This document shows positions 2,219 through 49,300 of a stretch of DNA of 64,000 nucleotides, piece after piece. Every line of letters starts with the position of its first letter. Within the stretch, counting starts at the first letter, position 1. This stretch comes from an uncultured Candidatus Cenarchaeum sp. (lineage in GTDB: Archaea; Thermoproteota; Nitrososphaeria; Nitrososphaerales; Nitrosopumilaceae): the NCBI GenBank assembly GCA_958295735.1, contig OY282369.1, positions 542,161-606,160 on the forward strand. The letters run 5' to 3'. Below the pieces are notes generated by a model. It saw only the letters and a list, made by a program, of their open reading frames with translations, was not told the origin of the DNA and searched no databases. The position numbers and the translations under genes were made by a program.

Positions 2219-2717
2219 ATGAATGTTTGGAATTGTGGATGTCCAATGCCGCGTCCGCCGCCCGGGCCGCCGCTCGCCGCGGGCGGCTGCACGCGCGGTC
2301 GAGCCGCGCGCTTCCAGCCGCGCCGTCCGGCAGGATGCCGGCGGGCCCGCCGCGCGGCCGGCAGGCGCCGTCCCCGGCGGGCATCCCGCCGCCGAACGGA
2401 TGCGGCCAAGTACGCGGATCCGGCCCCGCGCCGTCCACGGCCGGATCGGTCCCGCGGGGGCGCGGCGCGCGCGGGCGGGCGTCCGGCCCCGCATCATGCG
2501 GGCATCCCGGAGCCGCATCGCGGATCCGTGCGAGGCGCGCGCGCGGGCCGAAGTGCGGGATCTCTCGCCGGATCCGCCCGCGCGGCGCGATCGACTCGGT
2601 TGGTGATGGCCGCAGACCGCCGGCAGCGGATCTCCCGCCGGATCCGCCCGCGCGGCGCGATCGACGGCTTCCGCATCAGCCGCTGCGGCTGCGGGAGCCG
2701 GGGCCGCCCGCGGCGTG
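2219..2717. other. Intergenic region between members A and A2
   Basis: About 500 nt without a supportable gene. The part next to gene A (2211-2260) is an AT-rich patch, probably its promoter. On the minus strand just after the A2 stop codon, residues GGPGSRS can still be read, matching the linker of the intact paralogues, so this is a relic of the missing A2 coding sequence. The middle holds a pair of 38-bp direct repeats (separate entry). The rest is GC-rich sequence in which I see nothing. Confidence 0.6.
2558..2665. repeat. Direct-repeat pair, 38 bp, separated by 32 bp
   Basis: Copies at 2558-2595 and 2628-2665 differ at one base (T/C at the sixth position). The unique 32-bp segment between them is 2596-2627. 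Period is 70 bp. The repeat core contains GCCGGATCCGCCCGCGCGGC. It lies where the truncated member A2 loses homology to its paralogues. Geometry matches the repeat-spacer units in the other intergenic regions of this array, but the repeat sequence itself is different. Confidence 0.8.
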
Positions 2718-12800: not shown

Positions 12801-13384
12801 TCCCGCCCGCCTCCCCATATGACGGCGCGCCGAGGGCCGGATCGGATGACAGCACGGTAACGTCCCCGCCGAACAGCACGCGCACCGATGTGTCCGCCTC
12901 GTCCGTATGCCCGTCGGGGAACTCGATCGCGCCGATGGTGCCGTTCCCGCGCATTACAGTCACCGTCGGGGGAAGCGTCGTGGCGACGACCACGACGAGC
13001 GGCTCGCCCGCGACCGGCCGGGAATGCGCGGAGATCGTCGTGTTGGACGGGTTGGGGAGATCCGCGTATCCTGACGTGGCGTAGGGCGCGGCGGGCTCCG
13101 GCAGCTGCCGCTCTTGCCTGCCTAGAGCGCCGTCAGGCGCCCCCCCCCCCCGACGGAGCGGCGGCGGGCGGGCCGGCCGCGCACGCCGGATCCGCCGGCG
13201 CCTGCCCCTCGCCGCACGCGGCATCGGCCGCCTCCGGCACGGCCGCATCGTGCTGGGGCGGGGGCGCGGCCAGGGCGGCCGCCGCGACCATGACCGCGGC
13301 GGCAACGGCCGCGGCGGCGGCGGCTCCGAGCAGCAGGGGCGCGGGGCGCCGCGGCGCCAATCTGGGGCGTTCGCGCAAAGCCAT
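3826..13384 (-). CDS. Giant surface protein member B: two peptidase modules plus PBP1-like domain; out of frame at a G12 tract
   Basis: Start ATG 13384 (MALRERPRLAPRRPAPLLL; TATA box 27 nt upstream). The signal-peptide frame runs only 83 codons, because a G12 tract (13140-13151) shifts it to an early stop. After the tract the other frame is open for about 3100 codons, to TAG 3826-3828. Restored product about 3185 residues. Domain order: signal peptide; NPSNTTISA beta domain; Pro-rich linker; DLVLYG beta domain; peptidase module 1 (HEYAHHAHHH, GEGFADFF); PDPG/PTPT linker (about 11050-11210); Ig-like; lectin/MAM-like beta domain; two HYR-like repeats (VTWTATDAATG, VSWLAMDRSGN); second DLVLFG beta domain; peptidase module 2 (HEYAHHAHNH, about 8610-8640); a second Ig/HYR block; three GSPELLLDAGSPGA repeats; PBP1-like domain (about 4260-5380); conserved C-terminal domain ending VVNCS. 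Function inferred: secreted or wall-associated protein degradation and ligand binding. A homopolymer sequencing error is the main alternative to a genuine OFF state. Confidence 0.85.
13140..13151. repeat. C12 tract (G12 in member B), candidate phase-variation switch
   Basis: Twelve consecutive C on the plus strand, directly after codons for PPAAAPS. With 12 G the signal-peptide frame ends SGGGGA-stop. With 11 or 14 G it would continue into GAPDGALGRQE, which matches the paralogue reading GGQPDGAAGRQE in member A2. The current assembled length is therefore OFF. Confidence 0.85.
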
Positions 13385-19600: not shown

Positions 19601-19981
19601 GACCACGGAGAGCGGCTCGCCCGCGGCAGGCCGGGAGGACGCGGCGATCGTCGTGTTGGACGGGTTCGGGCGATCCGCGTACCCGGACGAGGCGTAGGGC
19701 GCCGCGCGCTCCGGCGGCCGCGGCTCTTGCAGGCCGGGGGAGGCCCCCTGCTGCCCCTCTGCGAGCGCTGCGGCAGGCGGGCCCGCGGCGCACGCCGGAT
19801 CCGAGGGCGCCCGCCCCGCGCCGCACGCCGCGTCGGACGCTGTCGGCCCCGCCGCATCGTTTTGGAGAGGCAGGGCCGCGGCCAGGGCGGGCGCCGCGAC
19901 GGCCGCGGCTGCAATGGTGGCAACGAGCAACCAAGGCGCGGGGCGCCGCGGCGCCGATCCGGCGCGCTCGTGCAGAGCCAC
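13637..19981 (-). CDS. Giant surface protein member C (2114 residues)
   Basis: Start taken at GTG 19981 (VALHERAGSAPRRPAPWLL), aligning with the ATG starts of paralogues and 26 nt from a TATA-like box. The frame is open further upstream into the intergenic repeats, which I reject as coding. Signal peptide; NPSNTTIAAS beta domain; linker; DLVLYG domain; peptidase module with HEYGHHAHSH (about 18270-18302) and GEGLAYFV, a variant of GEGFADFF that keeps the Glu; Ig-like; MAM-like beta domain; two HYR-like repeats; nine 20-residue repeats RSFPASAPALADGADLMPP (15578-16117); one GSPELLLDAG repeat; PBP1-like domain; C-terminal domain ending VSC. Intact, with no poly-G tract. Likely a secreted zinc peptidase or adhesin; family membership of the peptidase is inferred from motifs only. 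Confidence 0.85.
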   Translation of the reverse strand: MALHERAGSAPRRPAPWLLVATIAAAAVAAPALAAALPLQNDAAGPTASDAACGAGRAPSDPACAAGPPAAALAEGQQGASPGLQEPRPPERAAPYASSGYADRPNPSNTTIAASSRPAAGEPLSVVVATTLPLTAAVMRGDGTIGAIEFPDAYEDEADTSVRVLFGGDVTVLSSDPALGAPSHGEAGGNAYTEIGGTLAATPGREYRFEFTVLPAEEGITVIDAAGFLRGAARLVLDVAPAAGRGAAGQPQPAAAPDPPERAGPRGAGPPGGPVSADAARAALEAPRGGAPVPAPAGAAPWIPARSWAGHAGGAGAAPAGHQRAAQPGPEPARTGPGNGSGAADAGAGDLVLYGQIRMDLPYSDSTGPAHGLRVCASDVGADGGSSHVGYEDGTDACTFTNGYGMYVLGPLNNTDPDGDGTGPDLRIEVYSFGGGVLVRNKNATDWLYSENSTTHLRDRAAGNARLDMDVGTPAMNGAARIVDAISDARAFFVKEIGAEIPPVAVYWQHGERIIEAWPGQARVSTSHAYYQAFYSRMFLDGLAAVPTTGDMSESRYVIQHEYGHHAHSHLGGKAEGCKHHFRQKISPGCAFGEGLAYFVPHAVDASPVLREYEDTYVDMERELYRSGNAYYILFDYDNSTDKQTEIQVAGALWDVYDGTAAEVHDRRKTVVNVDNFGDPTGVVFPEGDNLDDLHMGADEIMQIVRDGPQTAEQFYARWERQPGLGSMENIMDLHRMPFNSSDLPAFDAIPAVTVSHAGEAAVPVSAASPPGAETSLSVRQGFDSLLNDGYGGAAMRDNGDGTGTLILNPARADVGENFVVVRADSSGKIELARVNVTVTDPPKWAPVQMNATFDRHLADWIRPGAGWGIVESADPSSPHLESYGSEPHEAYSKFGIDMTAYSSASLELSRYAPQMSPGSYLEAHAWNGTGWQLIEEWGAGEQTIRFETETVALPANLMDVEELGIRFTARGLPANPLHASGMLIDNVVITGTRSAAPAIEAPDDVAAEASPRGGPAAVDLGAPRADPEGLAITREPPWQSFPLGTTEVTWTATDAATGKSDSDTQLVAVLDATPPSVVPPADYTVRAGGAEVTLSANDYCAASATDAVSGVVVLHNATAGPPAGENSVWIADPDPSGGSAAADFPVGNTSTVTWLALDRSGNPGTATQNVTVVRSDAPHIPVSVVRAWADPGSPREPGSAMMLHVDFSHPVALTAAMSGEAPGSLRPSLEMKGGGSAAYASGNGTGRLTFSYTVQPGETAPDYAGTGALGGPCTIRSAADNRGADLELPPRSFPASAPALADGADLMPPRRSFPASAPALADAADLMPPRRSFPASAPAFADGASLGLHERSFPASAPALADGADLMPPRRSFPASAPALVDGASLGPPERSFPASAPAFADAADLEPPERSFPSSAPAFADGASLGPPERSFPASAPALEDAAAMMPPRRSFPASAPALADAAALVPSDPGPPGIPRVVDVTSDAGVGVYGAGRTVGLRVGFSEPVAVSGSPELLLDAGAPGAAATYASGSGTSSLAFEYAVRAADAAADLDYSGTGALKLNGGSISSLHGEAADLALPDPAAEPGLLAGPGRIVVGTKPQVPVGVFSGGPGDPSAEAARLGASAFNGLSAERGYAFFVDASEYSLPAGAGAAAALRGAHDGGRGPALYVGPASDGALHGMAGYAAANGITLVSHSSAARSLAVERDGMYRLEPGAAHMARVLALEIARGGFDAVVPAVQADLYGSAAAGGPSPGYGLLGPLASDLAPLGIPVGRPVEFSGTPGSGAAGSIGAAVLAAGGSGTSRNVAVVYVGSDSALAAIAGNAGAGSPVRERSAWFAAGGAGAGAGSGVAASPLVLSDAAALKMARDTRLAAVQFAVERNSVTDGIDAAVAAATPAASTPAYAAYEAARVIGRALALAGGDPTGAGGHVARAADLDGGPLGRMGVDGSGDLRLPVTYGAWSVSGTAAEWERAPALLRGMDACGIALEKSSLELPALSPGSKSRPARQTITNTGTVPTAAVSIHATDWTQFRDGAPLPAPPLPFSYTEISVGLAGASPREADSAPLEAGTEIPGGTPPGGRVDVDFRINLSDLDRLEADFISQTVTYGVSC
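15578..16117 (-). repeat. Nine in-frame 60-bp repeats in member C
   Basis: Tandem 60-nt units encode nine versions of RSFPASAPALADGADLMPP, with variation mainly in the last third (ADLMPPR, ASLGPPE, ADLEPPE). They sit between the HYR/beta region and the GSPELLLDAG repeat, where other members have short PDPG linkers, so they are probably an extended stalk. Unit-to-unit DNA identity is high, implying recent expansion. Confidence 0.85.
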
Positions 19982-20219: not shown

Positions 20220-23200
20220 CTAGGAGCAGTTGGCGACGAACGTGACGGTCTGCGATATGATGTCGGCCTCGAGCGCGTCCAGGCCCCCCAGGTTGATCCG
20301 GAAGTCGACGTCCACGCTGCCGCCCGGCGGCGTCCCCCCGGGTATCACGGTGCCCGCGGCCAGCGGGGCGGAGTCGGCCCGCCGCGGGGAGGCGCCGTCC
20401 AGGCCCACGGCCATCTCCGTGTACGAGAACGGCAGCTGTCCAGGTATGGGGACGCCGTCCCTGAACTGCGCCCAGTCCGTGGCGGACACGGACACCGCGG
20501 GCATCGGGCCGGTTCCTATGTTCGTCACGGTCTGCCGCGCCGGCCTGCTCGTGCTCCCCGCGGACAGCTCGGGGAGGGCGAGCGCCGACTTTTCCAGATC
20601 TATCCCGCACGCGTCCAGGCCCCGGAGCAGCTCGGGGGCCCGCGCCCACTCCGCCGCCGTATCGGACACGGACCACGCGCCGTACGTCACGGGAAACCGC
20701 AGGTCGCCGGAGCCGTCCATGCCCGTGCGGCCGAGCGGGCCGCCGGTCAGGGCCGCCGCGCCCGCTATGTTCCCCCCCGCGAGGGACGGGTCGCCCCCGG
20801 CCCCCACCAGGGCGCCGCCCAGCGCGCGGACGGCCTCGTACGCGGCGTAGGCCGGCGTGGCCGATGTGGCGGGGCCGCGCGGGGCCGCGATGCGGTCTAT
20901 GTAGTCCGTCATGGAATTGCGCTCCACGGCGAACTGGACGGCGGACAGCCGCACGTCGCGGGCCAGCTGTATGGCCGCCGCATCGGCCAGTATGGCGGGC
21001 GACGCGGCCACCCCGTTCCCCGCGCCGGCCCCCGCGCCGCCGGCGGCGAACCACGCCGACCTCTCACGTATGGGGCCGTCCGCCGGCACGCTGCCGGCCA
21101 TCGCCGCGAGTTCCGCATCCGAGCCCATGTACACGACGGCGACGCTCCTGGCCGTCCCGCTCCCGGCGGCCGCCGCCACGGCGGTTTCTATGGGCGCGGC
21201 CGCCGCGCCGCCGCCGCCCCCGGCGAACGCGACGGGCTCGCCGACGGGTATCCCGAGCGCCTCCAGGTCCGATTCCAGCGATTCCAGCAGGCCGTACCCG
21301 GGGCCGTGCAGGCCGGCCTGCACCACGGGGACTACGGCGCCGTACCCGCCCCGCGCCACCTCCGTCGCGAGGGCCCTGGCCAGGTGCGCCGCGCCGGGCT
21401 CCATCCGGAATATCCCGTCGCCTTCCACGGCCAGCGAGCGCGACGCCGACGAGTGCGATATTATCGTGATGCCGTTCTCCGAGGCGTACCCGGCCATGCC
21501 GGCCAGCGCTATATCGGAGGCCGGGCCCACGTACAGGGAGGGGCCGCTCCCGCCCCCGTGCGCCCCGCGGAGCGCCGCCGCGCCGGAGGCGCCCGCCGGG
21601 AGATCGTGCGCGGACACGCTGACGTAGAACTGGTAGCCGCGCTCCTTCGAGACGGCGTTGAAGGCGGCAGCCCCCAGCCTCGCCGCCTCGGCCGACGGGT
21701 CGCCGGCGCCGCGCGCGAACACGCCCACCCGCACGGGCTGCTTGCCGGCCTGCCCGGTCCCGTCGGGCCCGCCGGTGGACTTTTCGCCGGGATTCTCTAC
21801 GGGGTTCCCGAAGGCGTCCGTGACGTTCGCGGACAGGTCGAATCCCACGGCGGAGCTGGCCGAGGCGGTCGTGCTCGCGTTCGCGTTCCACGACACTACC
21901 ACGTTGTTCCCGTACGCGGCCGCCCCGGAGGCGCCGCCGCTGTTCCCCGCTGCCGCGGCGCCGCCCACCGTGATGTTCGTATAGTGGGAGGGGACGGCAA
22001 GCACCGGCTCCGAATAGACGGCGGCCATAGAGCTGCCGTTCAGCACGAAGGCCAGCAGGAAGGACGGGCGGTCGGGATCGCGCGCGACGTCCAGCAGCGC
22101 CCGCTCCGGCGCGTGCGCCGCGCGGCCGTTGGTGACGAAGCCGGCGGGCAGCAGCAGCGTGGTGGACTCCTGATCCGAGAACGCGGCCGCGTCCAGCGCT
22201 TCCCGCACCCGGTCGGACACGAGAAGCACGAAGGTCCTGTCCCCCGTGCTGCCGGACTCGACGGACAGTATATCGGCGGCAGACAGAGAGACCGCGGCGT
22301 CGCCTCCCCAGCTCCGGCCGCGGATCTCGATCATTCCTGGGAACGACTGCGCGCCGGGCGCGGTCGCGGCCTCGTCAAACGTCATGACGAGCCGGCCCGC
22401 GTTGCCGCCGGCCGGCGCCAGGTTGAAGGATGCCGCGGCGAGGCGCGGGGGCGATGGATCCTGCACGTACGCGAGCGGGACGGCCGGCTGGCCGCCCGGC
22501 GCGTACCCGTTGCCGGATGCGTCGGACACGAAGGCGGCGGGCAGCTCGATGGTGGCGGAGCCCAGGTCCGCCGCGTTGAGCTCCACGCGCTTGGCGCCGG
22601 AGATGTCCAGCGCGAACGCCGCGTCCCCCGCGCGGCCCGATGCCACGGAGGGAATGTCGCCGCTGGACAGCGCAACCTCCCCGCCGCCTCCCCGTATTAC
22701 TATCTCCCCCGCGAACGACCGCACGTCCGGCGCGGCGGCGGCCGCCTCGCCGAACGTAATAGTGAGCCGGCCGTTCTCTCCGGCCGTCAGGTCGAGGGCG
22801 GCGGATTCGAGCAGGGGGGCCTGGCCGCCCGACGGCCCCGGGTCGGGCAGCTCCAGGTCGGCCCCCCTGTTGTCGGCCGCGCTCCGTATAGTGCACGGCC
22901 CGCCCAGCGCGTCCGTTCCGGCATAGTCGGGGGCCGTCTCGCCCGGCTGCACCGTGTACGAGAAAGTGAGGCGGTCCGTCCCGTTCCCGGACGCGTACGT
23001 GGCGCTCCCGCCGCCCTCCATTTCAAGGGACGGTTTGAGGGAGCCCGGCGCCTCCCCGGACATGGCGGCAGTCAGGGCCACGGGGTGCGTGAACTCTACG
23101 TGCATCGTCATCGCGGAGCCCGGCTCGCGCGGCGAGCCCGGATCGGCCCACGCCCGTACGGCTGACACGGGGACGTGCGGGTCGTCCGACCGCACCACCG

Positions 23201-26200
23201 TCACGTCCTGCGTGGCGGTTGCGGGGTTGCCTGAACGGTCCAGGGCCAGCCACTTTACCGTGGTGGTGCTTCCGACGGGAAAGTACAGCGGGGCATTGTC
23301 CGGTATGATGACGTCCGAGACCGCGTCCGCGGCGGTGGCCTCGCAGTAGTCGTCTATGTACAAGGCGACGTCTGCGCCGCTGGCGCGCACCGTATAGTCA
23401 GCGGGCGGCGTCACCGAGGGCGGCGTCGTGTCAATGACCGTCACCCGCTGAGTGTCGCTGTCGGATTCTCCGGTCGTCGTGTCGGTCGCGGTCCACGTCA
23501 CTTCGGTGGTCCCGAGCGGGAACGACTGCAACTGCGGCTCGCGGGTTATGGCCAGTCCCGTTTGGGGATCCGTCGTGGGCGCGCCGAGGTCTGCTATGGT
23601 GGTGCCGCCGGGCGAGGCCGCTTCCGCCCTCACGTCGCCCGGTGCCTCGATCGCCGGGTTTCCGCCGCGCGTGCCTGTGATGACCACGTCGTCGACGACC
23701 ACGCCGAACTGGTCCAGGGGGTCGGCCGGCAAGCCCCTCGCCACAAACACTATGGTAAAGTCCTCCACCATCAGGTCTGCCGGCAACACGACAGTCTCTG
23801 CCTCGAATCCGCCCGTTGCCGCATCCGCGCCCCACTCTTCGATCTGCTCCCACCCGCCCGTGCTGTTAAACGCGTATACCCGCAGGTAGGAGCCCGCCTC
23901 CAGAAGCGGAGCATCGCGGAAAAATTCCAGGGTGGCCGACGAGTGCGCCGTCATGTCTATGGGAGTTGATAATACGCATCCCAGGTTTTCTGACCTAAAC
24001 GCGAGGTGATAGTCGGGCGTGTCGCCAGACCATACGATCCTCCACTCGTCGCTGGCGCTGCAACCCGTTCCTTGGATCCAGTCGACAAGGCCCTTGTCGA
24101 ATGTGTCGTTCAGCTGGACGGGAGCCCACTTCGGGGGATCCGTCACCGTGACGTCGACGCGGGCCAGCTCGACGTTTCCGGAAGAGTTGGCGCGCACCAC
24201 TACGAATTTTTCCCCCACGTCGGCCCTGGCGGGGTTCAGGATCAGGGTCCCCGTGCCGTCCTCGTTGTCGTCCATGGCGGCCCCAACGTAATGCAAGTCG
24301 TACTCGTTTTCGAACCCCTGACGCACATCGAGCGATACGTCGGCGCCCCCCGGAATGGTAGCAGACACCGGCACCGCGGCCTCTCCGGTATGGCTGACGG
24401 TTACGGGAGGGATCGGAGCAAACGCCGGAAGGTCCCCCGTGGAGTTGAACGGCATCCGGTGCAGGTCCATTATGTTTTCCATGCTGCCGAGCCCCGGCCG
24501 CCTTTCCCAGCGCACGTAGAACTGCTCGGCGTTCTGAGGGCCGTCCCGCACGATCTGGATGATCTCGTCGGCCCCCATGTGGAGATCGTCCAAGATTCCA
24601 CTTTCCGGAACAGCTTGCCCGCCGGCCCACAACCTCTTGCGGTCGTGCGTTTCGTCCACATGCTCGTCGTACACGTCCCAGAGAGCCCCCACCACCTGTA
24701 TCTCCGTCTGCTTGTCGGTGGAGTCGTTGTAGTCGAACAGGGTGTAATAGTCGTCGCCTACGCGGTACAGTTCGCGCTCCATGTCGACGTAGGTGTCCTC
24801 GTATTCCCGCAGTTCCGGCGCGTCGTCCACCATATGCGGGACAAAGTACGCGAGGCCCTCGCCGAACGCGCATCCCGGGGATATTTTTTGATCGAAACGG
24901 TGCGTGCAGCCCTCGGGCGGCCCTCCCAGGTGGGCGTGCGCGTGGTGGCCGTACTCGTGCTGGATGACGTACCTGCTCTCCGACATGTCGTGTGTTGCAG
25001 ATGTGTCCAATCCGCCTAGGAATATCTCGGAGTCAAGTGCAACGTAGAACGCATCGCCGCTGTCTGCATGTTCTGGCCAGGCATTTGCGACCCGGCTACC
25101 GTAGTGCCAGAATACCGTGACCGGCGGGATCTCGGCCCCTAGATCTTCTTTGAAGTGGGCCTTCGTGTCCGATATTACGCCCACTATGCGGGCGGCCCCG
25201 TTCATCGCATCCGACTCCACGTCCATGTCGAGCCGCGCGTTTCCGGCCTCGCGATCCCGCAGGTAATGCGGGCTGGGCTCGTAGTACGGCAGTCGCGCGC
25301 TGTCCCTGACCGACACCCCGTCGCCGAACGAAGATACATCGATGCTCAGATCCGGCCCCGTCCCGTCCCCGTCCGGATCCGTGTTGTCGAGTGGCCCCAG
25401 CACGTACCAGCCGTGCTCGTTCGCGAATGTGCAGGCAACCGTCCCATCCGTGTAGTTCAACAGCGTCTCGCTGGCATCCACAAGGTTGTAGTCGGTAGCG
25501 CACACGAACAGGCCGTGCGCGGGCCCCCTCAAGTCGGAGTACGGGAGCTCCATCCGGATCTCCCCGTACAGCACGAGATCCCCGGCGCCCGCATCCGCCG
25601 CGCCGCTGCGGGAGCCGTGGCCGCCCGTGGCGGGTTCGGGCCCCGGCAGCGCGGCGCGCTGATGCCCTGACGGGCCGGGGCCGCCTCGCCCCGCCAGGCT
25701 GCCCGCTGGAATCCCGGAGTCGGCGCCGGCGGGTGCCGGGACGGGCGCGTCCTCGCGGGGCGCCTCGAGGGCCGCCCTGATCGCGTCGTCCAAGCTCGGG
25801 CCGCCTGGCGGCCCCGCGCCCCGCGGGCCCGCCCGCTCCGGCGTATCCGGCGCCGCGGCGGACTGCGGATTCCCCTGCGCGTTCCGGCCGGCGGCCGGCG
25901 CCACGTCCAGTACAAGCCGGGCCGCCCCGCGCAGGAACCCCGCCGCGTCGATCACCGTCGCGCCCGCCTCGGTGGGAAGCACCGTGAACTCGAACCGGTA
26001 CTCACGGCCGGGCGTCGCCGCCAGCGTCCCCCCGATCTCCGTGTACGTGTTCCCGCCGGCCTCCCCGTGCGACGGCGCGCCGAGTGCGGGATCCGATGAC
26101 AGTACCTTGACGTCCCCGCCGAACAGCACGTGGACGGAGGTGTCCGCCTCGTCCGTATGCCCGTCGGGGAACTCGATCTCTCCGATGCTTCCGTTCCCGT

Positions 26201-26609
26201 GCATTACCGCCGCGGTGAGGGGAAGCGTGGTAGTGAGAACCACGGAAAGCGGCTCGCCCGCGACCGGCTTGGAATGCACGGAGATCGTCGTGTTGGACGG
26301 GTTGGGGCGATCCGCGTACCCGGACGAGGCGTAGGGCGCCGCGCGCTCCGGCGGCCGCGGCTCTTGCAGGCCGGGGGAGGCCCCCTGCTGCCCTTCTGCG
26401 GGCGCTGCGGCAGGCGGGCCCGCGGCGCACGCCGGATCCGCGGGCGCCTGCCCCGCGCCGCACGCCGCGTCGGACGCTGTCGGCCCTGCCGCATCGTTTT
26501 GGAGAGGCATGGCCGCGGCCAGGGCGGCCGCCACGACGACCGCGGCGGCAACGAGCAACCAAGTCGCGGGGCGCCGCGGCGCCGATCCGGCGCGCTCGTG
26601 CAAAGCCAC
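20220..26609 (-). CDS. Giant surface protein member E (2129 residues)
   Basis: Start GTG 26609 (VALHERAGSAPRRPATWLL), 26 nt from a TATA-like box; stop TAG 20220-20222. Modules: Ala/Val-rich signal peptide; NPSNTTISVH beta domain; Pro-rich linker; DLVLYGEIRM transthyretin-like domain; zinc-peptidase module with HEYGHHAHAH and GEGLAYFV (about 24850-24960); Ig-like; MAM-like; two HYR-like domains; then a pair of ESAALDLTAGENGRLTITF-type beta domains shared with members D and the NHL protein at 46.3-58.8 kb but not with B or C; PBP1-like domain; C-terminal domain ending FVANCS. The N-terminal third is closest to member C and the middle to member D, so the gene is a mosaic. Secreted; peptidase and ligand-binding roles are inferred from modules. 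Confidence 0.85.
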   Translation of the reverse strand: MALHERAGSAPRRPATWLLVAAAVVVAAALAAAMPLQNDAAGPTASDAACGAGQAPADPACAAGPPAAAPAEGQQGASPGLQEPRPPERAAPYASSGYADRPNPSNTTISVHSKPVAGEPLSVVLTTTLPLTAAVMHGNGSIGEIEFPDGHTDEADTSVHVLFGGDVKVLSSDPALGAPSHGEAGGNTYTEIGGTLAATPGREYRFEFTVLPTEAGATVIDAAGFLRGAARLVLDVAPAAGRNAQGNPQSAAAPDTPERAGPRGAGPPGGPSLDDAIRAALEAPREDAPVPAPAGADSGIPAGSLAGRGGPGPSGHQRAALPGPEPATGGHGSRSGAADAGAGDLVLYGEIRMELPYSDLRGPAHGLFVCATDYNLVDASETLLNYTDGTVACTFANEHGWYVLGPLDNTDPDGDGTGPDLSIDVSSFGDGVSVRDSARLPYYEPSPHYLRDREAGNARLDMDVESDAMNGAARIVGVISDTKAHFKEDLGAEIPPVTVFWHYGSRVANAWPEHADSGDAFYVALDSEIFLGGLDTSATHDMSESRYVIQHEYGHHAHAHLGGPPEGCTHRFDQKISPGCAFGEGLAYFVPHMVDDAPELREYEDTYVDMERELYRVGDDYYTLFDYNDSTDKQTEIQVVGALWDVYDEHVDETHDRKRLWAGGQAVPESGILDDLHMGADEIIQIVRDGPQNAEQFYVRWERRPGLGSMENIMDLHRMPFNSTGDLPAFAPIPPVTVSHTGEAAVPVSATIPGGADVSLDVRQGFENEYDLHYVGAAMDDNEDGTGTLILNPARADVGEKFVVVRANSSGNVELARVDVTVTDPPKWAPVQLNDTFDKGLVDWIQGTGCSASDEWRIVWSGDTPDYHLAFRSENLGCVLSTPIDMTAHSSATLEFFRDAPLLEAGSYLRVYAFNSTGGWEQIEEWGADAATGGFEAETVVLPADLMVEDFTIVFVARGLPADPLDQFGVVVDDVVITGTRGGNPAIEAPGDVRAEAASPGGTTIADLGAPTTDPQTGLAITREPQLQSFPLGTTEVTWTATDTTTGESDSDTQRVTVIDTTPPSVTPPADYTVRASGADVALYIDDYCEATAADAVSDVIIPDNAPLYFPVGSTTTVKWLALDRSGNPATATQDVTVVRSDDPHVPVSAVRAWADPGSPREPGSAMTMHVEFTHPVALTAAMSGEAPGSLKPSLEMEGGGSATYASGNGTDRLTFSYTVQPGETAPDYAGTDALGGPCTIRSAADNRGADLELPDPGPSGGQAPLLESAALDLTAGENGRLTITFGEAAAAAPDVRSFAGEIVIRGGGGEVALSSGDIPSVASGRAGDAAFALDISGAKRVELNAADLGSATIELPAAFVSDASGNGYAPGGQPAVPLAYVQDPSPPRLAAASFNLAPAGGNAGRLVMTFDEAATAPGAQSFPGMIEIRGRSWGGDAAVSLSAADILSVESGSTGDRTFVLLVSDRVREALDAAAFSDQESTTLLLPAGFVTNGRAAHAPERALLDVARDPDRPSFLLAFVLNGSSMAAVYSEPVLAVPSHYTNITVGGAAAAGNSGGASGAAAYGNNVVVSWNANASTTASASSAVGFDLSANVTDAFGNPVENPGEKSTGGPDGTGQAGKQPVRVGVFARGAGDPSAEAARLGAAAFNAVSKERGYQFYVSVSAHDLPAGASGAAALRGAHGGGSGPSLYVGPASDIALAGMAGYASENGITIISHSSASRSLAVEGDGIFRMEPGAAHLARALATEVARGGYGAVVPVVQAGLHGPGYGLLESLESDLEALGIPVGEPVAFAGGGGGAAAAPIETAVAAAAGSGTARSVAVVYMGSDAELAAMAGSVPADGPIRERSAWFAAGGAGAGAGNGVAASPAILADAAAIQLARDVRLSAVQFAVERNSMTDYIDRIAAPRGPATSATPAYAAYEAVRALGGALVGAGGDPSLAGGNIAGAAALTGGPLGRTGMDGSGDLRFPVTYGAWSVSDTAAEWARAPELLRGLDACGIDLEKSALALPELSAGSTSRPARQTVTNIGTGPMPAVSVSATDWAQFRDGVPIPGQLPFSYTEMAVGLDGASPRRADSAPLAAGTVIPGGTPPGGSVDVDFRINLGGLDALEADIISQTVTFVANCS

Positions 26610-26938: not shown

Positions 26939-29900
26939 CTAGGAGCAGTTGACGACGAACGTGACGGTCTGCGATATGAAGTCGGCATCGAGCGCGTCCA
27001 GGCCATCCAGGTTGATCCGGAAGTCGACGTCCAGGCTGCTGCCCGGCGGCGTCCCTCCCGGTATCTCGGTGCCCGCGGCCAGCGGGGTTGAGTCGGCCCG
27101 CCTGGGGGAGGCGCCGTCCAGGCCCACGGCCATCTCCGTGAGCGAGAACGGCAGCTGTCCCTGCACGGGGACGCCGTCCCTGAACTGCGCCCAGTCCGTG
27201 GCGGACACGGACACCGCGGGCATCGGGGTGGTTCCCACGTTCGTCACGGTCTGCCGCGCCGGCCTGCTCGTGCTCCCCGCGGACAGTTCGGGGAGGGCGA
27301 GCGCCGGCTTTTCCAGATCTATCCCGCACGAGTCCAGGCCTCGGAGCAGCGCGGGGGCGCGCTCCCACTCCGCCGAGGTATCCGAGACCGACCACGCGCC
27401 GTACGTCACGGGCAGCCGCAGGTCGCCGGAGCCGTCCATGCCCGTGCGGCCGAGCGGGCCGCCGACCAAGGCCGCCGCGCCCGCCACGTTCCCCCCCGCG
27501 AGGGACGGGTCGCCCCCGGCCAGCACCAGGGCGCCGCCCAGCGCGCGGACGGCCTCGTACGCGGCGTAGGCCGGAGTGGCCGATGTAGCGGGGCCGCGCG
27601 GGGCCGCGATGCGGTCGATGTAGTCCGTTATGCTGTTGCGCTCCACGGCGAACTGGACGGCGGACAGCTGTACGTCGCGGGCCAGCTGCATGGCCGCCGC
27701 ATCGGCCAGCACGGCGGGCGACGCGGCCACCCCGCTCCCCGCGCCGGCCCCCGCGCCGCCAACAGCGAACCATGCCGACCTCTCCCGTATGGGGCCGTCC
27801 GCCGGCACGCTGCCGGCCATCGCTGCGAGCTCCGCATCCGAGCCCATGTACACGACGGCGACGCTCCTGGCCGTCCCGCTCCCGGCGGCCGCCGCCACGG
27901 CGGCCCCCACGGGCGCGGCCGCCGCGCCGCCGCCCCCCGCGAACGCGACGGGCTCGCCTACGTGTATCCCGAGCGGTTCCAGGTCCGATTCCAGCTGTTC
28001 CAGCAGGCCGTACCCGGGGCCGTGCAGGTCGGTCTGCACCACGGGGACTATGGCGCCGTACCCGCCCCGCGCCACCTCGGCCGCGAGGACCCTGGCCAGG
28101 TGCGCCACGCCGGGCTCCATCCGGAATATGGGATCGCCCCCCATGGCAAGCGGGCGCGCCGCCGACGAGTGCGATATTATTGTTATCCCGTTCTCCGAGG
28201 CGTAGTCGGCCATGCCGGCCAGCGCCGTGTCGGAGGCCGGGCCCACGTACAGGGAGGGGCCGCTCCCGCCGCCGTGCGCCCCGCGGAGCGCCGCCGCGCC
28301 TAGAGCGCCCGCCGGGAGATCGTGCTCGGACACGTCGACGTAGAACGCGTAACCGCGCTCCACCGATACGGCGTTGAAAGCGGCGGCCCCCAGCCTCGCC
28401 GCCCCCATGGAGGGGTCGCCGGCGCCGCGCGCGAACACGCCCACCCGCACGGGCTGCTTGCCGGCCTGCCCGGTCCCGCCCGGCCCGGCGGTGTACTTTG
28501 CGCCGGGGTTTTCAAGCGGGTTACCGAAGGCGTCAGTGACGTTCGCGGACAGGTCGAATCCCACGGCGGAGCCGGCCGCGGCGGTCGTGCTCGCGTTCGC
28601 GTTCCACGACACTATAACGTTGTTCCCGAACGCGGCCGCGTCGGAGGCGCCGCCGCCGTTCCCCGCCGCCGCGGCGCCGTCCACCGTGATGTTCGCGTAG
28701 TGAGAGGGGACGGCAAGCACCGGCTCCGAATAGACGGCGGCTACGGAGCTGCCGTTCAGCACGAATGCCAGCAGGAAGGCCGGGCGGTTGGGATCGCGCG
28801 CGACGTCCAGCGGCGCCCGCTCCGGCGCGTGCGCCGCGCGGCCGTTGGTGACGAAGCCGGCGGGCAGCAGCAGCGTGGTGGACTCCGGATCCGAGAACGC
28901 GGCCGCGTCCAGCGCCGCCCGCGCCCGGTCGGACACGAGAAGCACGAAGGTCCTGTCCCCCGTGCTGCCGGACTCGACGGACAGTACGTCGTCGGCGGAC
29001 AGGGTGACCGCGGCGTCGCCTCCCCCGCTCCGGCCGCGGATCTCGATCATTCCGGGGAACGACTGCGCGCCGGGCGCGGTCGCGGCCTCGTCGAACGTTA
29101 TAACGAGCCGGCCCGCGGCGCCGCCGGCCGGCGCCAGGTTGAAGGATGCCGCGGTGAGGCGCGGGGGCGAGGGATCCGGCACGTACGCGAGCGGGACGGG
29201 CGGCTGGCCGCCCGGCGCGTACCCGTTGCCGGATGCGTCGGACACGAAGGCGGCGGGCAGCTCGATGGTGGCGGAGCCCAGATCGGGCCCGTTGAGCTCC
29301 ACGCGCTTGGCGCCGGAGATGTCCAGCGCGAACGCCGCGTCCCCCGCGCGGCCCGATGCCACGGAGGGAATGTCGCCGCTGGACAGCGCAACCTCCCCGC
29401 CGCCTCCCCGTATTACTATCTCCCCCGCGAACGACCGCACGTCCGGCGCGGCGGCGGCCGCCTCGCCGAACGTAATAGTGAGCCGGCCGTTCTCTCCGGC
29501 CGTCAGGTCAAGGGCGGCGGATTCGAGCAGGGGGGCCTGACCGCCCGACGGCCCCGGGTCGGTCGGCCCCGGGTCGGTCGGCCCCGGGTCGGTCGGCCCC
29601 GGGTCGGTCGGCCCCGGGTCGGTCGGCCCCGGGTCGGTCGGCCCCGGGTCGGGCAGCTCCAGGTCGGCCCCCCTGTTGTCTGCCATGCTCCGTATAGTGC
29701 ACGGCCCGCCCAGCGCATCCGTTCCAGCATAGTCGGGGGCCGTCTCGCCCGGCTGCACCGTATACGAGAAAGTGAGGCGGTCCGTCCCGTTCCCGGACGC
29801 GTATGTGGCGCTCCCGCCGCCGTCCATTTCAAGGGACGGCAAGAGGGAGCCGGGCGCCTCCCCCGACATGGCGGCGGTCAGCGCCACGGGATGCGTGAAC

Positions 29901-32900
29901 TCCACGTGCATCGTCATCGCGGAACCCGGCTCGCGCGGCGAGTCGGGGTCGGCCCACGCCCGCACGGCCGACACCGGGACATGCGGAGTGCCAGACTGCA
30001 CCACCGCCACATTCTGCGTGGCGGTTCCTTGGTTGCCCGAATAGTCCAGGGCCAGCCACGTCACCGTGGAGGTGCTCCCCACGGGGAAGCCCGCGGCGGC
30101 CGGGCCGCCGGAAGGATCAGGGTTCGCGATCCACGTGGAGTTCTCGCCCGCGGGCGGGCCCGCGGTGGCGTTGTGCAGCACGACGACGTCCGATACCGCG
30201 TCTGTTGCGGAGGCCGCGCAGTAGTCGTTGACGGACAGGGAGACCTCCGCGCCGCCGGCGTATACCGTATAGTCCGCGGGCGGCGCCACCGAGGGCGGCG
30301 TCGCGTCGAAGACGGTCACCCACTGCGTGTCCGTGTCCGATTTTCCGGTCTCCGGGTCGGTAGCGGTCCACGTCACTCTAGTGGTCCCGGGGGAGAAGGG
30401 CCCCTGCGGCTCGCGGGTTATGTCCAGCCCCGATGCGGGATGCGTCGTCGGCGCGCCGAGGACGACCGCGGTGGTGCTGCCCGGCGACGCCGCTTCCGCC
30501 TTCACGTCGTCGGGTGCCTCGATCGCGGGGCCGGCAAGAGTGCCGGTGATAGCCACGTCGTCTATTCGCACGCTGAACGGGTCAGAGGAGTTGGCCGGCA
30601 AGCCCTTCGCCACAAACGCAATGCGGAAGTTATCCACCAACAAGTCGGGCGGCAGCACAACTGACTCTTCTTCGAATCCAACCGTCACGTTGTCAGCGCC
30701 CCATCTGCCGATCAGCCACCAGTTCTCAAACAACCACCACTCTTCGACGGTCACCGCGTAGATATCCAGGTACGAGCCCGCCTCCAAGAGTGGCGCGCTG
30801 CGGAGCAGTCTCAACTCAGCCGATGCGTACGCAGTCATGTCTATGCTGCGTCTCATAAACGCGTCGCTCTCTCCATTGGCCTTGAACCGGAGGTGTGGAG
30901 CAGACGAGCCACCTTCCTGGTCGATCCACCACCCGTCGACGTCGCTCCACCGTGTGGAGAGCCAGTCGGCATCGTCCCTGTCGAAGGTGGAATTCAGCTG
31001 GACGGGGGCCCACTTCGGGGGTTCCGTCACCGTGACGTCGACGCGGGCCAGCTCGACGTTTCCAGAAGAGTTGGCGCGCACCACCACGAAGTTTTCCCCC
31101 ACGTCGGCCCTGGCGGGACGCAGGATCAGCGTTCCCGTGCCGTCCCCGTTGTCGTCTATGGTGGCACCCCCGTACGGGTCGTCGTGCTTGTCGTCGAACC
31201 CCTGGCGCACATCGAGTGATACGCTGGCGCCCCCCGGATGGGTGGCCGACACCGGCACCGCGGCCTCTCCCGTATGGCTGACGGTTACGGCTGGAATGGC
31301 GTCAAACACAGGGAGGTCCCCCGTGGCGTTGAACGGCATCCGGTGCAGGTCCATTATGTTGGCCATGCTTCCCAAATCCGCCTGCTTTTCCCACCGCACG
31401 TAGAACTGCTCGGCGTTCTGCGGGCCGTCCTGCACGATCTGGATGATCTCGTCGGCCCCCATGTGGAGGTCGTCCAAGATTCCACTTTCCGGAACAGTTT
31501 GCCCGCCGGCCCGCGACCTCTTGCGGTCGTGTGTTTCGTCAACATGCTCGTCGTACACGTCCCAGAGGGCCCCCGCCACCTGTATCTCCGTCTGCTTGTC
31601 GGTGGAGTTGTCGTAGTTGAACAGTATGTCAATGTAAGTACCATAATATGCCACCTCCTGCTCTATGTTAACGAAGACGTCCTCGTAGTCTCGCAGTTTC
31701 GCGGCGCCGTCAACCATATGCGGAATAAAATATGCGAGACCTTCGCCAAACGCGCATTCCGGGGATATCTTTTGCTTGAAATGGTGCGTGCAACCCTCGG
31801 ACGGCCCTCCTAAGTGGGTTTGCACATGGTGGCCGTACTCGTGCTGGATGGTGTACCTGCTCTCCGACCAGTCGTACGATGCGTTGGACTTCAACCCGTC
31901 GAGGAATATCCCACGTTGGGTGTAGAATGCCGTATCGCCGTCGTCCGCAAGTTTCGGCCAAGCTTTTGCGACGGGTTTGCCGTAATGCCAGAACACGTCG
32001 ACTGCCGGGATCTCGATGCCGAGCTCCTCCTCAAAGTAGGCCTTTGTGTCCGATATCGCGTCCACTATGCGGGCGGCCCCGTTCATCGCGTCATCCTCCA
32101 CATCCATGTCGAGCCGCGCGTTTCCGGCCTCGCGATCCCGCAGGTAATACGAGCTAGCTTCGTAGTACGGCAGCGTCGTGTTGTCCATGACGTACATCCC
32201 GTCGCCGGCAGAAAGCACGTAGATGCTCAGATCCGACCCCGTCCCGTCCCCGTCCGGATCCGTCCCGTCAAGGGGCCCCAGCACGTACCAGCCGTGCTCG
32301 TTCGCGAATGTGCAAGCGGCCGTCCCATCCGTGTAGTTCAACAGCGTCTCGCTGGCATCCACAATGTTGTAGTCGGTAGCGCACATGTACAGGCCGTGCG
32401 CGGGCCCCGTCAAGTTGGAGTACGGGAGCTCCATCCGGATCTGCCCGTACAGCACGAGATCCCCGGCGCCAGCATCCGCCGCGCCGCTGCGGCTGCCGGG
32501 GCCGCCCGGGGCGGGTTCAGGCCCAGGTAGCGCGGCGCGCGGATGCCCGGACGGGCCGGGGCCGCCGCGCCCCGCCAGGCTGCCGGCGGGAATCCCGGAG
32601 TCGGCGCCGGCGGGCGCCGGGACTGGCGCGCCCGCGCGGGGCGCCGCGAGGGCCGCCCTGATCGCGTCGTCCAAACTCGGGCCGCCTGGCGGCCCCCCGT
32701 CCCGCGGGCCCGCCCGTTCCGGCGGATCCGGCGCCGCGGCGGACTGTTGATTCCCTTGCGCGCTCAGGCCGGCGGCCGGCGCCACGTCCAGTACAAGCCG
32801 GGCCGCGCCGCGCAGGAACCCCGCCGCGTCGATCACGGTGACGCCCTCCTCGGCGGGAAGCACCGTGAACTCGAACCGGTACTCTTGGCCGGGCGTCGCT

Positions 32901-33506
32901 GCCAGCGTCCCCCCGATCTCCGTGTACGCGTTTCCGCCTGCCTCGCCGCGGAACGGCGCGCCAAGGGCCGGATCCGAGGTCAGCACCGCGACGTCCCCGC
33001 CGAACAGCACGTACACCGAGGTGTCGGCCTCGTCCGTATACCCGTCGGGGAACTCGATCACCCCAATGCTTCCGTTCCCGCGCATTACCGCCGCCGTCAG
33101 GGGAAGCGTCGTAGTAACGACCACGCCGAGCGGCTCGCCCGCGACCGGCCGGGAGGACGCTGAGATCGTCGTGTTGGACGGGTTGGGGCGATCCGCGGAC
33201 CTGGACGATGCGTACGGCGCTACGGGCTCCGGCAGCAGCTGCTCCTGACGGCCTGTAGTGCCGTCAGGATGTCCGCCCCCCCCCCCCCGAAGGAGCCGCG
33301 GCAGGCGGGCCCGCCGCGCATGCCGGATCCGCAGGCGCCTGCCCCGCGCCGCACGCGGCGGCAACCTCCGGCGCGGCCGCATCGTGCTGGGGCAGGGCCG
33401 CGGCCAGGGCGGCCGCCGCGACGACGGCCGCGGCGGCAACGGCAACGGCGGGCAACCAGAGCGCGGGGCGCCGCACTACCGTTCCGGCGCGCCCGTGCAA
33501 AGCCAT
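26939..33506 (-). CDS. Giant surface protein member D; out of frame at a G13 tract
   Basis: Start ATG 33506 (MALHGRAGTVVRRPALWLP; TATA box 27 nt upstream). The signal-peptide frame ends after 80 codons because of the G13 tract at 33276-33288. The frame beyond the tract is open to TAG 26939-26941, giving about 2188 residues if one G is lost. Modules: signal peptide; NPSNTTISAS beta domain; linker; DLVLYGQIRM domain; peptidase module HEYGHHVQTH with GEGLAYFI (about 31740-31842); Ig-like; MAM-like; two HYR-like; a Pro-Thr-Asp-Pro-Gly repeat linker (29556-29655); two ESAALDL beta domains; PBP1-like domain (about 27330-28470); C-terminal domain ending VVNCS. Very close to member E across the 3' half. 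The frameshift lies at the same protein position as that of member B. Confidence 0.85.
29556..29655 (-). repeat. 15-bp tandem repeat encoding PTDPG in member D
   Basis: Six to seven perfect 15-nt units (plus-strand GGTCGGTCGGCCCCG) encode repeated Pro-Thr-Asp-Pro-Gly. Member E has a single PDPGPSGG at the same place, so this is a recent in-frame expansion of a linker. Confidence 0.9.
33276..33288. repeat. C13 tract (G13 in member D), candidate phase-variation switch
   Basis: Thirteen consecutive C on the plus strand. From ATG 33506, 13 G leads to SGGGGRTS-stop. Twelve or fifteen G would join the signal peptide to HPDGTTGRQEQ and the rest of the protein. The assembled length is therefore OFF. 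Confidence 0.85.
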
Positions 33507-33529: not shown

Positions 33530-33536
33530 TAATAAA
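33530..33536 (-). promoter_or_regulatory. TATA-like box of member D
   Basis: Minus-strand TTTATTA centred 27 nt upstream of ATG 33506. Just beyond it (about 33541-33567) is one degenerate copy of the array repeat. Confidence 0.6.
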
Positions 33537-45271: not shown

Positions 45272-46356
45272 GTGGCCGCCTTGGGAAAAGAGTTCGGCAC
45301 GGACATGGGCACCACGCACGCCTGAAGGATTTTCTGGATGCGTGCGACGACCACCCGGAAATCGTAGTGACGGAGGCGGCCGCCAACGCCATAGACGCGA
45401 AGGCCGCGCGGGTCGACGTGGAACTGAAGACGCATTTCGACGACAAGGCGATCTCGTTCCACAACGACGGGCCGCCGATGAGCGAGGAGCAGTTCAGTGA
45501 CTATCACGTGATAGCCCGATCAAGCAAGTCGAGGGGGACGGGCATAGGGTTTGCGGGCATCGGCGCCAAAGTGTACCTGGCGGCGTGGGACAGGACGGCC
45601 ATGCGGACGGAGACTTCCGACGGGAACGCCGCGCTCGGCTCCGAGATGTACGTCAAGAACGGCAAGCTGAAGGCCACGTACACGGACTCCGCCATGAGAA
45701 AGCGCGGGACGCTGTACCGGGTTTCGCTAAAGCCTGACGACTACGCCTACCTGGAAAAAAACGCGCACGGCCTGATCTCCGACGCGTTCGATCCCGCGAT
45801 ATCGGGAAAACTCGCGGTGACCCTCAACGGCAGGCGCATCAAGCCGTGGAATCCCAGGCGCGGACTCAAAAAATCGTTCACCGTGACCGCGCAGGGCGAG
45901 AAATTCCGGGTCCTGCTGTCCGTGACGGAAGACGACATGGAGGCCAAGAAGCTGCACGTGCAGTACCACGTGAGCGGAAAGGTGATATCGACCAAAAGGC
46001 CGGACTGGATCCCGGAGGTAAAGCCCGAATACGCCAGGCGGATCCACGCGTACGTGGATGCCGTGGCGAACTCCCAGCATCTCAACCTCAACAAGACTGG
46101 CTTCAAGGCGGGCACGTCGCGAGCCGTCGGGCTAATGTTCAAGGAGGTAGACCGCCGCGTGTACGACGTGCTGAAAAATGAAGGATACGTGGACGGCGAT
46201 CCGATGAGAAAATTCGAGAGGACCAGTCTTACGAGGTTCTTTGAGCGCCTCTTCAAGGATCCCAAATACGCGTTCCTCAACCCGAACGCCCGAGGAGGGC
46301 GCGGACCGGGAAGCGGCCCCGGCGCCGGCGGCGCGGGGGGCGGCGGCCCCGGCTAG
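45272..46356 (+). CDS. GHKL (MutL/MORC-like) ATPase, apparent frameshift near start
   Basis: Conserved frame ends at TAG 46354-46356 and covers about 345 residues: EAAANAIDAKA (motif I with Asn and Asp), FHNDGPPMSEEQF (motif II), SSKSRGTGIGFAGIGAKVYLAAW (ATP lid), then a transducer-like region and a helical C terminus. That frame has no ATG, GTG or TTG near its beginning. The only sensible start is GTG 45272 (VAALGKEFGTDMGTTHA), 3 nt after the methyltransferase stop, but this is in another frame and stops at 45323-45325. The two pieces join smoothly as GTTHA-RLKDFLDAC if one base is adjusted near 45316-45322. So the gene is either broken, recoded, or carries a sequencing error. The Gly-rich C-terminal tail runs into the 3' flank of the convergent gene. 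Expected role: ATP-driven clamp in the R-M module. Confidence 0.8.
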
Positions 46357-49300
46357 GAGCAGTTGACGACGAACGTGACGGTCTGCGATATGAAGTCGGC
46401 CTCGAGCGCGTCCAGCCCCGCCAGGTTGATCCGGAAGTCGACGTCCACGCTGCCGCCCGGCGGCGTCCCCCCCGGTATCACGGTGCCCGCGGCCAGCGGG
46501 GTAGAGTCGGCCCGCCGCGGGGAGGCGCCGTCCAGGCCCACGGCCATCTCCGTGTACGAGAACGGCAGCAGTCCCTGCACGGGGACGCCGTCCTTGAACT
46601 GCGCCCAGTCCGTGGCGGACACGGACACCGCGGGCATCGGGCCGGTCCCTATGTTCGTCACGGTCTGCCGCGCCGGCCTGCTCGTGCTCCCCGCGGACAG
46701 GTTTGGGAGGGCGAGCGCCGACTTTTCCAGGTCTATCCCGCACGAGTCCAGGCCCCGGAGCAGCTCGGGCGCCCGCTCCCACTCCGCCGCCGTACCGGAC
46801 ACGGACCACGCGCCGTACGTTATGGGCAGCCGCAGGTCGCCGGCGCCGTTCACGCCCGTGCGCCCGAGCGGGCCGCCGTCCGAGTCGGCCGCCCTCGCGA
46901 CGTGGCCTCCCGCCCCCGACGGATCGCCCCCGGCCAGCGCCAGGGCCCTGCCGAGTATGCGCGCGGCCTCGTACGCGGCGTAGGCCGGCGTGGCCGACGC
47001 GGCGGGGCCAGGAGCGCCCGCTGGGCCGTACGCGGCATAGTCGACGAAGTCCGTCGCGGCGTTCCGCTCCACGGCGAACTGCACCGCGGACAGCCGCACG
47101 TCCCTGGCCAGCTGCACGGCCGCCGCGTCCCGCAGCACTAGGGGGGACGCGGCCACCCCGCCGCCCGCCCCCGCCCCCGCGCCGCCGGCCGCGAACCATA
47201 CGGACCTGTCCCGCACGGGGCTGCCCGCCCCCGCGCCCCCCGCGATGGCGGCCAGCCCCGAGTCGGAGCCGGCGTACACGACGGCCACGCTCCTGGCGGT
47301 CCCGCTGCCGGCCGCCTCCCGCACGGCGTCCCCTATGGGCGCGGCGGCCGCGCCGCCCCCGCCTCCCGAAAACTCGACGGGCGGGCCGACGCGCACGCCT
47401 AGCGGCCCCAAGTCGGACGCCAGCGGCCCCAGCAGGCCGTATTCCGGGCCGCGCGCGTCCGTCTGCACCACCGGCACGACCGCGCCGAACCCGCCCCGCG
47501 CGATCTCGACGGCGAGGACCCTGGCCAGGTGCGCCGCGCCCGGCTCCAGCCGGTATATGCCGTCCCCCTCCACGGCCAGCGAGCGCGCCGCGGACGAGTG
47601 CGACACCAGGGTTATCCCGTTCGCCCCGGCGTACCCCGCCATGCCGCGCAGCGCCGCATCCGAGGCCGGGCCCACGTACAGCGCGGGCCCCCGCCCGCCG
47701 TCGTGGGCGTCCCGGAGCGCCGCCCCGGCGGCGGCCCCGGACGCGCCGGCCGGGAGCGCGTATTCCGTGACGTTGACGAGGAACGCGTAGCCGCGCTCCT
47801 CCGAGAGGGCGTTGAAGGCGGCGGCGCCGAGCCGCGCCGCCCCGGCCGAGGGGTCTCCCGGGCCGCGCGAAAAGGCGCCCACCAGCACGCTCCGCTTGTT
47901 GCCCTCCTGCCCGCCCGCGGACTTTGGGCCGGGGTTTTCGATGGGGTTCCCGAAGGCGTCGGTGACGTTCCCCGACACGTCGAACCGCACCTCGGAGCCG
48001 GCCGAGGCGGTCGTCCCGATGCCCGCGTTCCACGACACCACGACGTTGTTCCCGAACGCGGCGGCCCCCGAGGCGGCGCCGCGGTTGCCTTCCGCGGGGG
48101 CGCCGTCCACCCTGACGTTGGAATAGTGGGCCGGAACGGCCAGCACCGGCTCGTCGTACACGGCCGCGACGGAGCTGCCGTTCAGCACGAAGGCCCACAC
48201 GAACGACGGGCCGTCGGAGTCGCGGCCGGCGGACAGCGGCGCCGGCTCCCGCTCGTGCGCCGAGCGGCCGTTCGTGACGAAGCCGTCGGGCAGCGACACG
48301 GTGGTGGACAGCGGGTCGGAGTACTCGGCGGCCCCGAGCGCCTCCGCCTTCGGGCCCGGCACGGGCAGCGCGAAGGTCCTGCCCCCCTCGCTGCCGGATG
48401 CGGCCGACTCGAAGTCGCCGGCGGACAGGGCCAGCGTCGCGTCGCCGCCCCCGCTCCGGCCGCGGATCTCGATCTCGCCCGCGAACGACCGCGCGTCCGG
48501 CATCGTGACCGCCTCGTCGAACGTGACGGTGAGCCGCCCCGTGCTGCTGCTTCCCGGCTCCAGGTTGATCGCCGCCGCGGCGAGGCGCGGGGGCGAGGGA
48601 TCCTGCGCGTGCGCGAGCGGGACGGGGGGCAGGCCGCCCCGCGCGTACGGGCTGCCGCCCGCATCCGACACGAAGCCGTCGGGCAGCGACACGGTGGCCG
48701 AGCCCAGGTCCGCCCCGTTGAGCTGCACCCTCTTGGCGCCCGATATGTCCAGCGCGAACGCCGCATCCCCCGGGTGGCCCGACGCGACGGAGGGGACGTC
48801 CGCGGCGGACAGGGCGACCTCCCCGCCGCCGCCGCGTATCACGATCTCTCCCGCGAACGACCGCGCGTCCGGCATCGTGACCGCCCCGCCGAACGTGACG
48901 GTGAGCCGGCCGTTGCTGCCCGCTTCCAGGTCTAGTCTGGCGGCTTCGAGCAGGACGCCCGCGGCGGGGGCCGCGCCCTCGTACGTTATCGAGAACCTGG
49001 CCGCGCCGGAGCCGATGCCCGTCGCCGCGCTCCGCGCCGCGCCCGCGGGGACGTCGACCAGTATGGTCCCGCCGATCGTGGGCGAGACGTCGAAGGAATA
49101 CGAGTCGCCGCTGCCCGCGAAGTTGGCCGCGCCGCCGTGCGCGGTATCGTTTGAAAGCTCGATGTCGCCTGCCTCGAACCCGGTGACGGGCTCGGTAAAG
49201 TTCACCCGGAAGTTGATCGTGGTCGCGTTGGTCGGGCTCTGCTGGGCAGCCGTGATGGTCGGGGTCGGGACCGAGCTGTCGTACGTTATCGAGAACTGGT

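Follow-up and report, generated by a model that had tools for sequence, protein, structure and literature searches.

How can a gene for a giant secreted protein keep more than 2,100 codons free of stops when a run of guanines near its 5' end sets those codons out of frame with their own start? The question is raised by member D of a set of paralogous genes in a 64,000-nucleotide stretch (hereafter the window; positions 542,161 to 606,160 of contig OY282369.1) from an uncultured Candidatus Cenarchaeum sp., in which 13 consecutive G (G13) separate a signal peptide from the protein body. We consider it probable that this tract is a slippage-driven phase-variation (contingency) locus and one of an archaeal set of such loci. 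Replication slippage would lengthen or shorten the run by one G or a few, and with the translated signal peptide ahead of the run and the giant body behind it, each length change would shift the body into or out of frame; cells would thereby alternate between secreting and not secreting the D protein, which is OFF as assembled. D would then be part of a genome-wide leading-strand set that includes giant surface proteins, restriction-modification genes and other defence genes. The run and its frames, homologous coding sequence on both sides of it, an architecture common to a family, bimodal run lengths, strand polarity and counterparts in a sister species are the observations from which this proposal is drawn.

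The G tract of member D and its counterpart in member B

On the minus strand, a TATA-like box (TTTATTA, 33530..33536), predicted to act as a promoter element, lies 30 nt upstream of a leaderless ATG at 33506. This ATG opens a coding part of 72 codons with a signal peptide (33289..33506), which is followed by the G13 tract (33276..33288, C13 on the plus strand). The ATG frame runs into a stop a few codons past the tract (after PPAAAPSGGGGRTS), and the downstream frame is open to 26939. The resulting open reading frame (ORF; 26939..33275) is stop-free over more than 2,100 codons, a length unlikely to arise by chance in DNA of 72% G+C, and encodes an HExxH-containing region and a weak match to the HYR domain. 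Exact determination of the run and translation of the frames thus confirmed the layout set out in the original prediction, namely signal peptide, G13 and frameshift, and equally its expectation that G12 would turn D ON, as any length divisible by three joins both frames.

Both sides of the tract evolve as coding sequence, because the ratio of nonsynonymous to synonymous change (omega) of D against its tract-less paralogues A and C is below 1 on each: 0.38 (A) and 0.46 (C) before the tract, and 0.41-0.51 after it. Such conservation points to an out-of-frame state that is recent, reversible or miscalled in length. An error in the consensus, with the true run in D (and in B, described below) one base shorter and the genes simply ON, would agree with the difficulty of calling homopolymers of 12-13 and with the fact that D and B are each one base over their in-frame length. 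We nevertheless regard it as improbable, since many members of a second family (see below) have runs just as long and yet are in frame in the assembly, and miscalling would explain neither the existence of the runs nor their strand polarity and placement. Moreover, even if the length had been miscalled at a hypermutable run, the locus would still be switchable.

The original prediction had also stated that B and D carry runs of different length at the homologous position and that both are OFF, which is correct: B, likewise on the minus strand, has a G12 (13140..13151) between a pre-tract part with ATG and signal peptide (13152..13384) and a post-tract ORF (3826..13139), and is out of frame. 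Paralogues A (20220..26609) and C (13637..19981), also on the minus strand, are continuous ORFs with GTG starts and were rightly described as lacking the run, whereas member E, listed with them as run-free, does carry one. The further suggestion that B and D had retained their tracts independently is not borne out by synonymous divergence (dS), which for B-D is 0.22 before the tract and 0.49 after it. The corresponding values for A-C are 0.05 and 0.30, and pre-tract dS between the two groups (B/D against A/C) is 0.36-0.61. The 5' ends therefore fall into a run-bearing and a run-free group, a division that does not track the relationships of the bodies. As the 5' ends of B and D are closer than their bodies, the tract-bearing 5' end is common by descent or gene conversion, and on the divergence values a single shared event of either kind is enough for both tracts.

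Protein D was also assessed as a candidate HExxH metallopeptidase, for which a downstream Glu and a recognised family or fold would be expected. The motifs QHEYGHH and GEG are conserved in all four window paralogues, with one G-to-A change in B. Pfam returns the weak HYR match alone for the D-type protein, and the AlphaFold model of the HExxH region has a pLDDT of 28; a sequence search of the PDB with this protein gave no match. A contig scan of genomes with the N-terminal domain recovered no relative, and relatives of the D-type domain occur in 2 of 25 genomes (the own genome and, weakly, G006), which leaves no orthologue of the D tract for comparison. More relatives of the A-D domain, partly broken and one with an internal TAG, lie at 1-3470 of the window and overlap its left edge (541874-545627 of the own genome, G000). 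Rfam and tRNA scans of the window found nothing.

A second family, defence genes and a sister species

Member E is a giant NHL/Ig-like protein of 4136 aa encoded on the minus strand (46353..58763). Its ATG lies 29 nt after TTTAACTA and is followed by a G12 tract (58574..58585), a signal peptide, and NHL and Big_12 domains; the tract thus stands between the leaderless ATG and the signal peptide, and is in frame. A family profile comprising the leader and first Ig-like domain was built from 10 run-bearing members, and 24 leader-bearing members (L280-L303) were taken from the matches listed, namely those that begin no later than model position 18, with one partial match from model position 15 at 1,144,770 left out. 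Among the 24, a run of at least 11 is present in 16, a G10 in 2 and none in 6. Such a run of at least 11 lies within 150 nt upstream of the matched leader in these 16 members, as against 5 of 342 other gene starts. As the ten profile seeds and one more member had been picked for their runs, we also counted the 13 others alone, of which 5 have a run of at least 11 (p=6e-6).

A TTTATCTA-type box precedes the ATG or GTG by 28-29 nt in all 14 run-bearing members with a clear start, and the order in these is box, start, spacer, G run, about 20 codons and signal peptide. Judged from the promoter-defined start, 6 of the 14 are in frame and 8 out; this count excludes L298, L301 and L302 (no clear start) and L297 and L300 (ambiguous), while L284 was counted on a 28-nt spacing and L295, which has no run, on 34. 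Run lengths in the family extend from 11 to 15. Long homopolymers are known slip sites, and slippage of RNA polymerase or the ribosome on the G run might yield some in-frame product at any DNA length, which would account for the intact bodies of D and B despite their frames. We hold such recoding to be very improbable, because recoding at a fixed site would be expected to keep to one register, whereas this one family shows lengths of 11-15 and both registers, and because A and C manage without a run.

For other genes with runs, 20 of 33 listed proteins downstream of or overlapping them were examined. A type IIG restriction-modification gene has an internal change of frame at a G13, and both halves match PADLOC; a type II methyltransferase has a G13 at its N-terminus, and a DndB-type gene has a G14 six codons in and out of frame. 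Further G runs lie upstream of a type II restriction enzyme and of PDC-M33A.

A same-genus relative, G001 (2,045,086 bases; 57.9% G+C in 400 kb sampled), has 18 runs of at least 9, with lengths of 9 (1), 10 (2), 11 (5), 12 (6), 13 (3) and 17 (1), so that 15 of the 18 reach 11 or more. In a 400 kb sample of this genome the longest runs are of 8 (2 runs), and those of 7 number 41. Four of the 18 lie at most 100 nt before signal peptides, compared with 1.1% in the control (p=5e-5), and at L256 the run comes after the signal peptide, as it does in D. One run ends a glycosyltransferase ORF at its C-terminus, and a methyltransferase gene contains another, which is in frame; the relative of this methyltransferase in the own genome, by a relationship judged by eye, has the N-terminal G13. 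Strand polarity in G001 is not significant (12 of 17 runs of at least 10; p=0.14). At L255 (G001:C1:1681999) a G11 separates a TTATAA box from the ATG of a secreted protein, and a change in its length would therefore alter the spacing of promoter and start and not the frame.

These findings bear on the idea, part of the original prediction, of a switching device shared within the array of paralogues. The recurrence of the architecture in a second family and in a sister species fits a switching device, but not one belonging to the array, as the runs are genome-wide and on the leading strand; the 3 runs of at least 12 in the window are close to the genome average (129 in 3.17 Mb).

Relation to known contingency loci

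In Campylobacter, Helicobacter and Neisseria, poly-G runs of about 9-15 lie in or near the 5' ends of genes for surface proteins, glycans and restriction-modification, in a mixture of ON and OFF states. Hypervariable G/C runs have reportedly been found in the archaeon Pyrobaculum aerophilum; the likeness there lies in long G runs in an archaeal genome, which are not known to be linked to the 5' ends of secreted-protein families or to the leading strand. The bacterial loci (phasomes; PMC6321876, PMC2823697 and PMC5084427) resemble the present set in the long G runs at 5' ends, the surface and restriction-modification targets and the mixed frames. The present set differs in belonging to an archaeon, in its leaderless starts and in its giant NHL/Ig-like family, and it is confined to the leading strand. 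Homopolymeric tracts at the 5' ends of prokaryotic genes have been surveyed with 18 archaeal genomes included, and that survey reports enrichment of poly(A)/poly(T) up to 7 nt and general under-representation of poly(C)/poly(G) in coding genes (PMC2831843); the runs considered here are G11-G18.

In D, a run far beyond chance length is placed so as to alter the reading frame, and intact, selected coding sequence lies on both sides of it. The same device recurs in several genes for surface proteins, glycans and restriction-modification, the classes that phasomes typically contain, and in-frame and out-of-frame states are both present among the run-bearing genes (D and B being out). Multi-locus phase variation has so far been described mostly in host-associated bacteria. 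A 2025 review names archaeal phylogenies in stating that future expansion of the known distribution may inform explanations (PMC11868660). Within one literature collection and a few search phrases, we found no paper on phase variation in archaea or Cenarchaeum.

Length and strand of G runs across the genome

The own genome is a single contig of 3,166,131 bases with 129 G runs of at least 12: 46 of exactly 12, 41 of exactly 13 and 42 of at least 14. Any G13 is present in 56 of 398 genomes of the phylum, the own genome being highest with 157 overlapping matches, and any G14 in 5 of 41 genomes, the own included. Extrapolation from runs of 4-8 nt predicts about 0.05 runs of at least 13 per genome on the leading strand and about 0.2 on the lagging strand; the observed numbers are 83 and 0. 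An origin as chance homopolymers in GC-rich DNA is accordingly rejected (83 runs against fewer than 0.3 expected). Nine-G words in the window (13 against 6.1 expected, with 6 of 100 shuffles as high) are not very unusual. At approximately 72% G+C in the window and 3.17 Mb, the own genome is far above G001 (57.9% in the sampled 400 kb, 2.05 Mb).

Run lengths are bimodal, with a trough at 8-10 and a hump at 11-14. Noncoding leading-strand G runs, counted in evenly spaced stretches that total 560 kb, number 727 at length 4, drop to 2, 0 and 2 at lengths 8, 9 and 10, and rise again to 5, 5 and 3 at 11, 12 and 13; coding DNA in the same sample has no run of 11 or more. The leading strand holds 123 of the 129 runs of at least 12, and its share climbs with length (40/46 at 12, 41/41 at 13 and 42/42 at 14 or more). 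Here the replication origin was set from the single cdc6 match, whose relatives are Nitrosopumilales (best identities 69-70%), and the terminus was assumed to be its antipode; cdc6 was chosen because GC skew is weak and irregular in stretches, for which reason skew was dropped as a marker. The strand of the G runs flips at 1.27-1.36 Mb, the site of this only Cdc6 match (1.328 Mb), and near the antipode, and run density rises mildly toward the presumed terminus (Kolmogorov-Smirnov p=0.012). In the NHL/Ig-like family, both members on the lagging strand (2 of 24) lack any G run of at least 6 close to the leader.

Noncoding near-runs (8:10) and G-quadruplex (G4) motifs without a long run (144:150) are unpolarised, and on this ground G-quadruplex strength was rejected as the cause of the polarity. 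Loss of NucS/EndoMS, also rejected as the cause, does not discriminate, as the gene is absent here but also from 20 of 25 genomes searched, G001 among them. The idea that the runs arose from direct repeats flanking them was likewise set aside (11/64 against 489/4860, p=0.09). In a reconstituted yeast replisome, a G homopolymer on the leading-strand template stalls synthesis from about 20 units and a C homopolymer from about 30 (PMC9296464). The resemblance lies in a run-length threshold and a dependence on strand; that system uses yeast proteins in vitro, and its thresholds are longer than the 12-13 seen here. If the archaeal replisome stalled as the yeast one does but at shorter runs, the only G runs to last would be those with C on the leading template, as is observed, and by this analogy stalling is a possible cause of the leading-strand confinement.

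Such polarity also lends itself to a neutral explanation, in which runs longer than about 11 nt grow by slippage only on the leading strand and accumulate where frameshifts are tolerated, D having been hit by or having inherited a run with no selected switching. The rise of polarity with run length and the unpolarised near-runs and G4 motifs, which mark pure homopolymers as special, are in its favour. So are the absence of runs of at least 11 from coding DNA in the 560 kb sample and the location of 120 of 123 leading-strand runs outside predicted coding segments, a figure that overstates intergenic location, as genes were predicted with a home-made 3-periodic model, trained on giant ORFs of the window, that labels short N-termini, including the runs of B, D and E, as noncoding. 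Neutral expansion does not predict a run at one place in 16 of 24 members of the secreted family (5 of 13 non-seed members), and leaves the placement by signal peptides in two families and two species unexplained. It also fails to account for the enrichment near sense gene starts, which are found close to 47 of the 120 noncoding leading-strand runs as against 21% of random noncoding positions (p=1e-5). We therefore think it unlikely, though it ranks above both miscalled length and recoding.

Four points weigh against selected switching of D and its companions. First, 73 of the 120 noncoding leading-strand runs have no sense gene start within 250 bp, so that many runs need not switch anything. 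Second, the ratio of in-frame to out-of-frame genes, 6:10 with B and D included, is that expected of random frames (p=0.79) and would fit neutral drift in length as well; these two points leave the neutral explanation some probability. Third, an odd target, an NFACT gene (Rqc2-type, of core type; L026, G000:C1:1422616), has a G14 right against its first codons. An in-frame ATG is not visible between this G14 and the NFACT gene. Fourth, actual changes of length, their rate, the phenotype of the protein and the benefit to the cell are extrapolated from the assembled sequence.

For the set as a whole we put forward, at about even chances, a poly-G contingency system that spans the genome of a Cenarchaeum-like ammonia oxidiser, probably a sponge dweller, and that would be the first archaeal phasome. 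The system would be shared with the sister species, would control genes for phage defence as well as giant surface proteins, and would be locked to the leading strand, so that only leading-strand genes could become switches. If this were true, an animal-associated archaeon would be using the slippage device of bacteria to diversify both its surface and its defences. The strict polarity, with 83 natural runs of at least 13 and none on the lagging strand, makes a link between replication asymmetry and homopolymer stability testable.

Some of the runs lie in repeats. In 10 of the 129, TG[CT][CT]GACC follows within 30 nt, mostly in the form TGCTGACCTCATAC, or one close to it, immediately behind the run, and often with a common GGCGCCGCGGCCGGC-like 5' flank, which indicates a dispersed repeat carrying the G run (G000:C1:231496, 404084, 1155380, 1170872, 1255645, 1290770, 1946050, 2199034, 2721582 and 2797232). 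Elsewhere the runs recur in tandem, one per unit of about 40-75 bp, at G000:C1:1831583-1831736, 1923440-1923530, 1272167-1272245 and 346437-346489. Finally, a coding segment that is transposase-like (Pfam scan of the first copy) is present in two copies (G000:C1:138612 and 2798625), with a G14 and a G13 at the same place.
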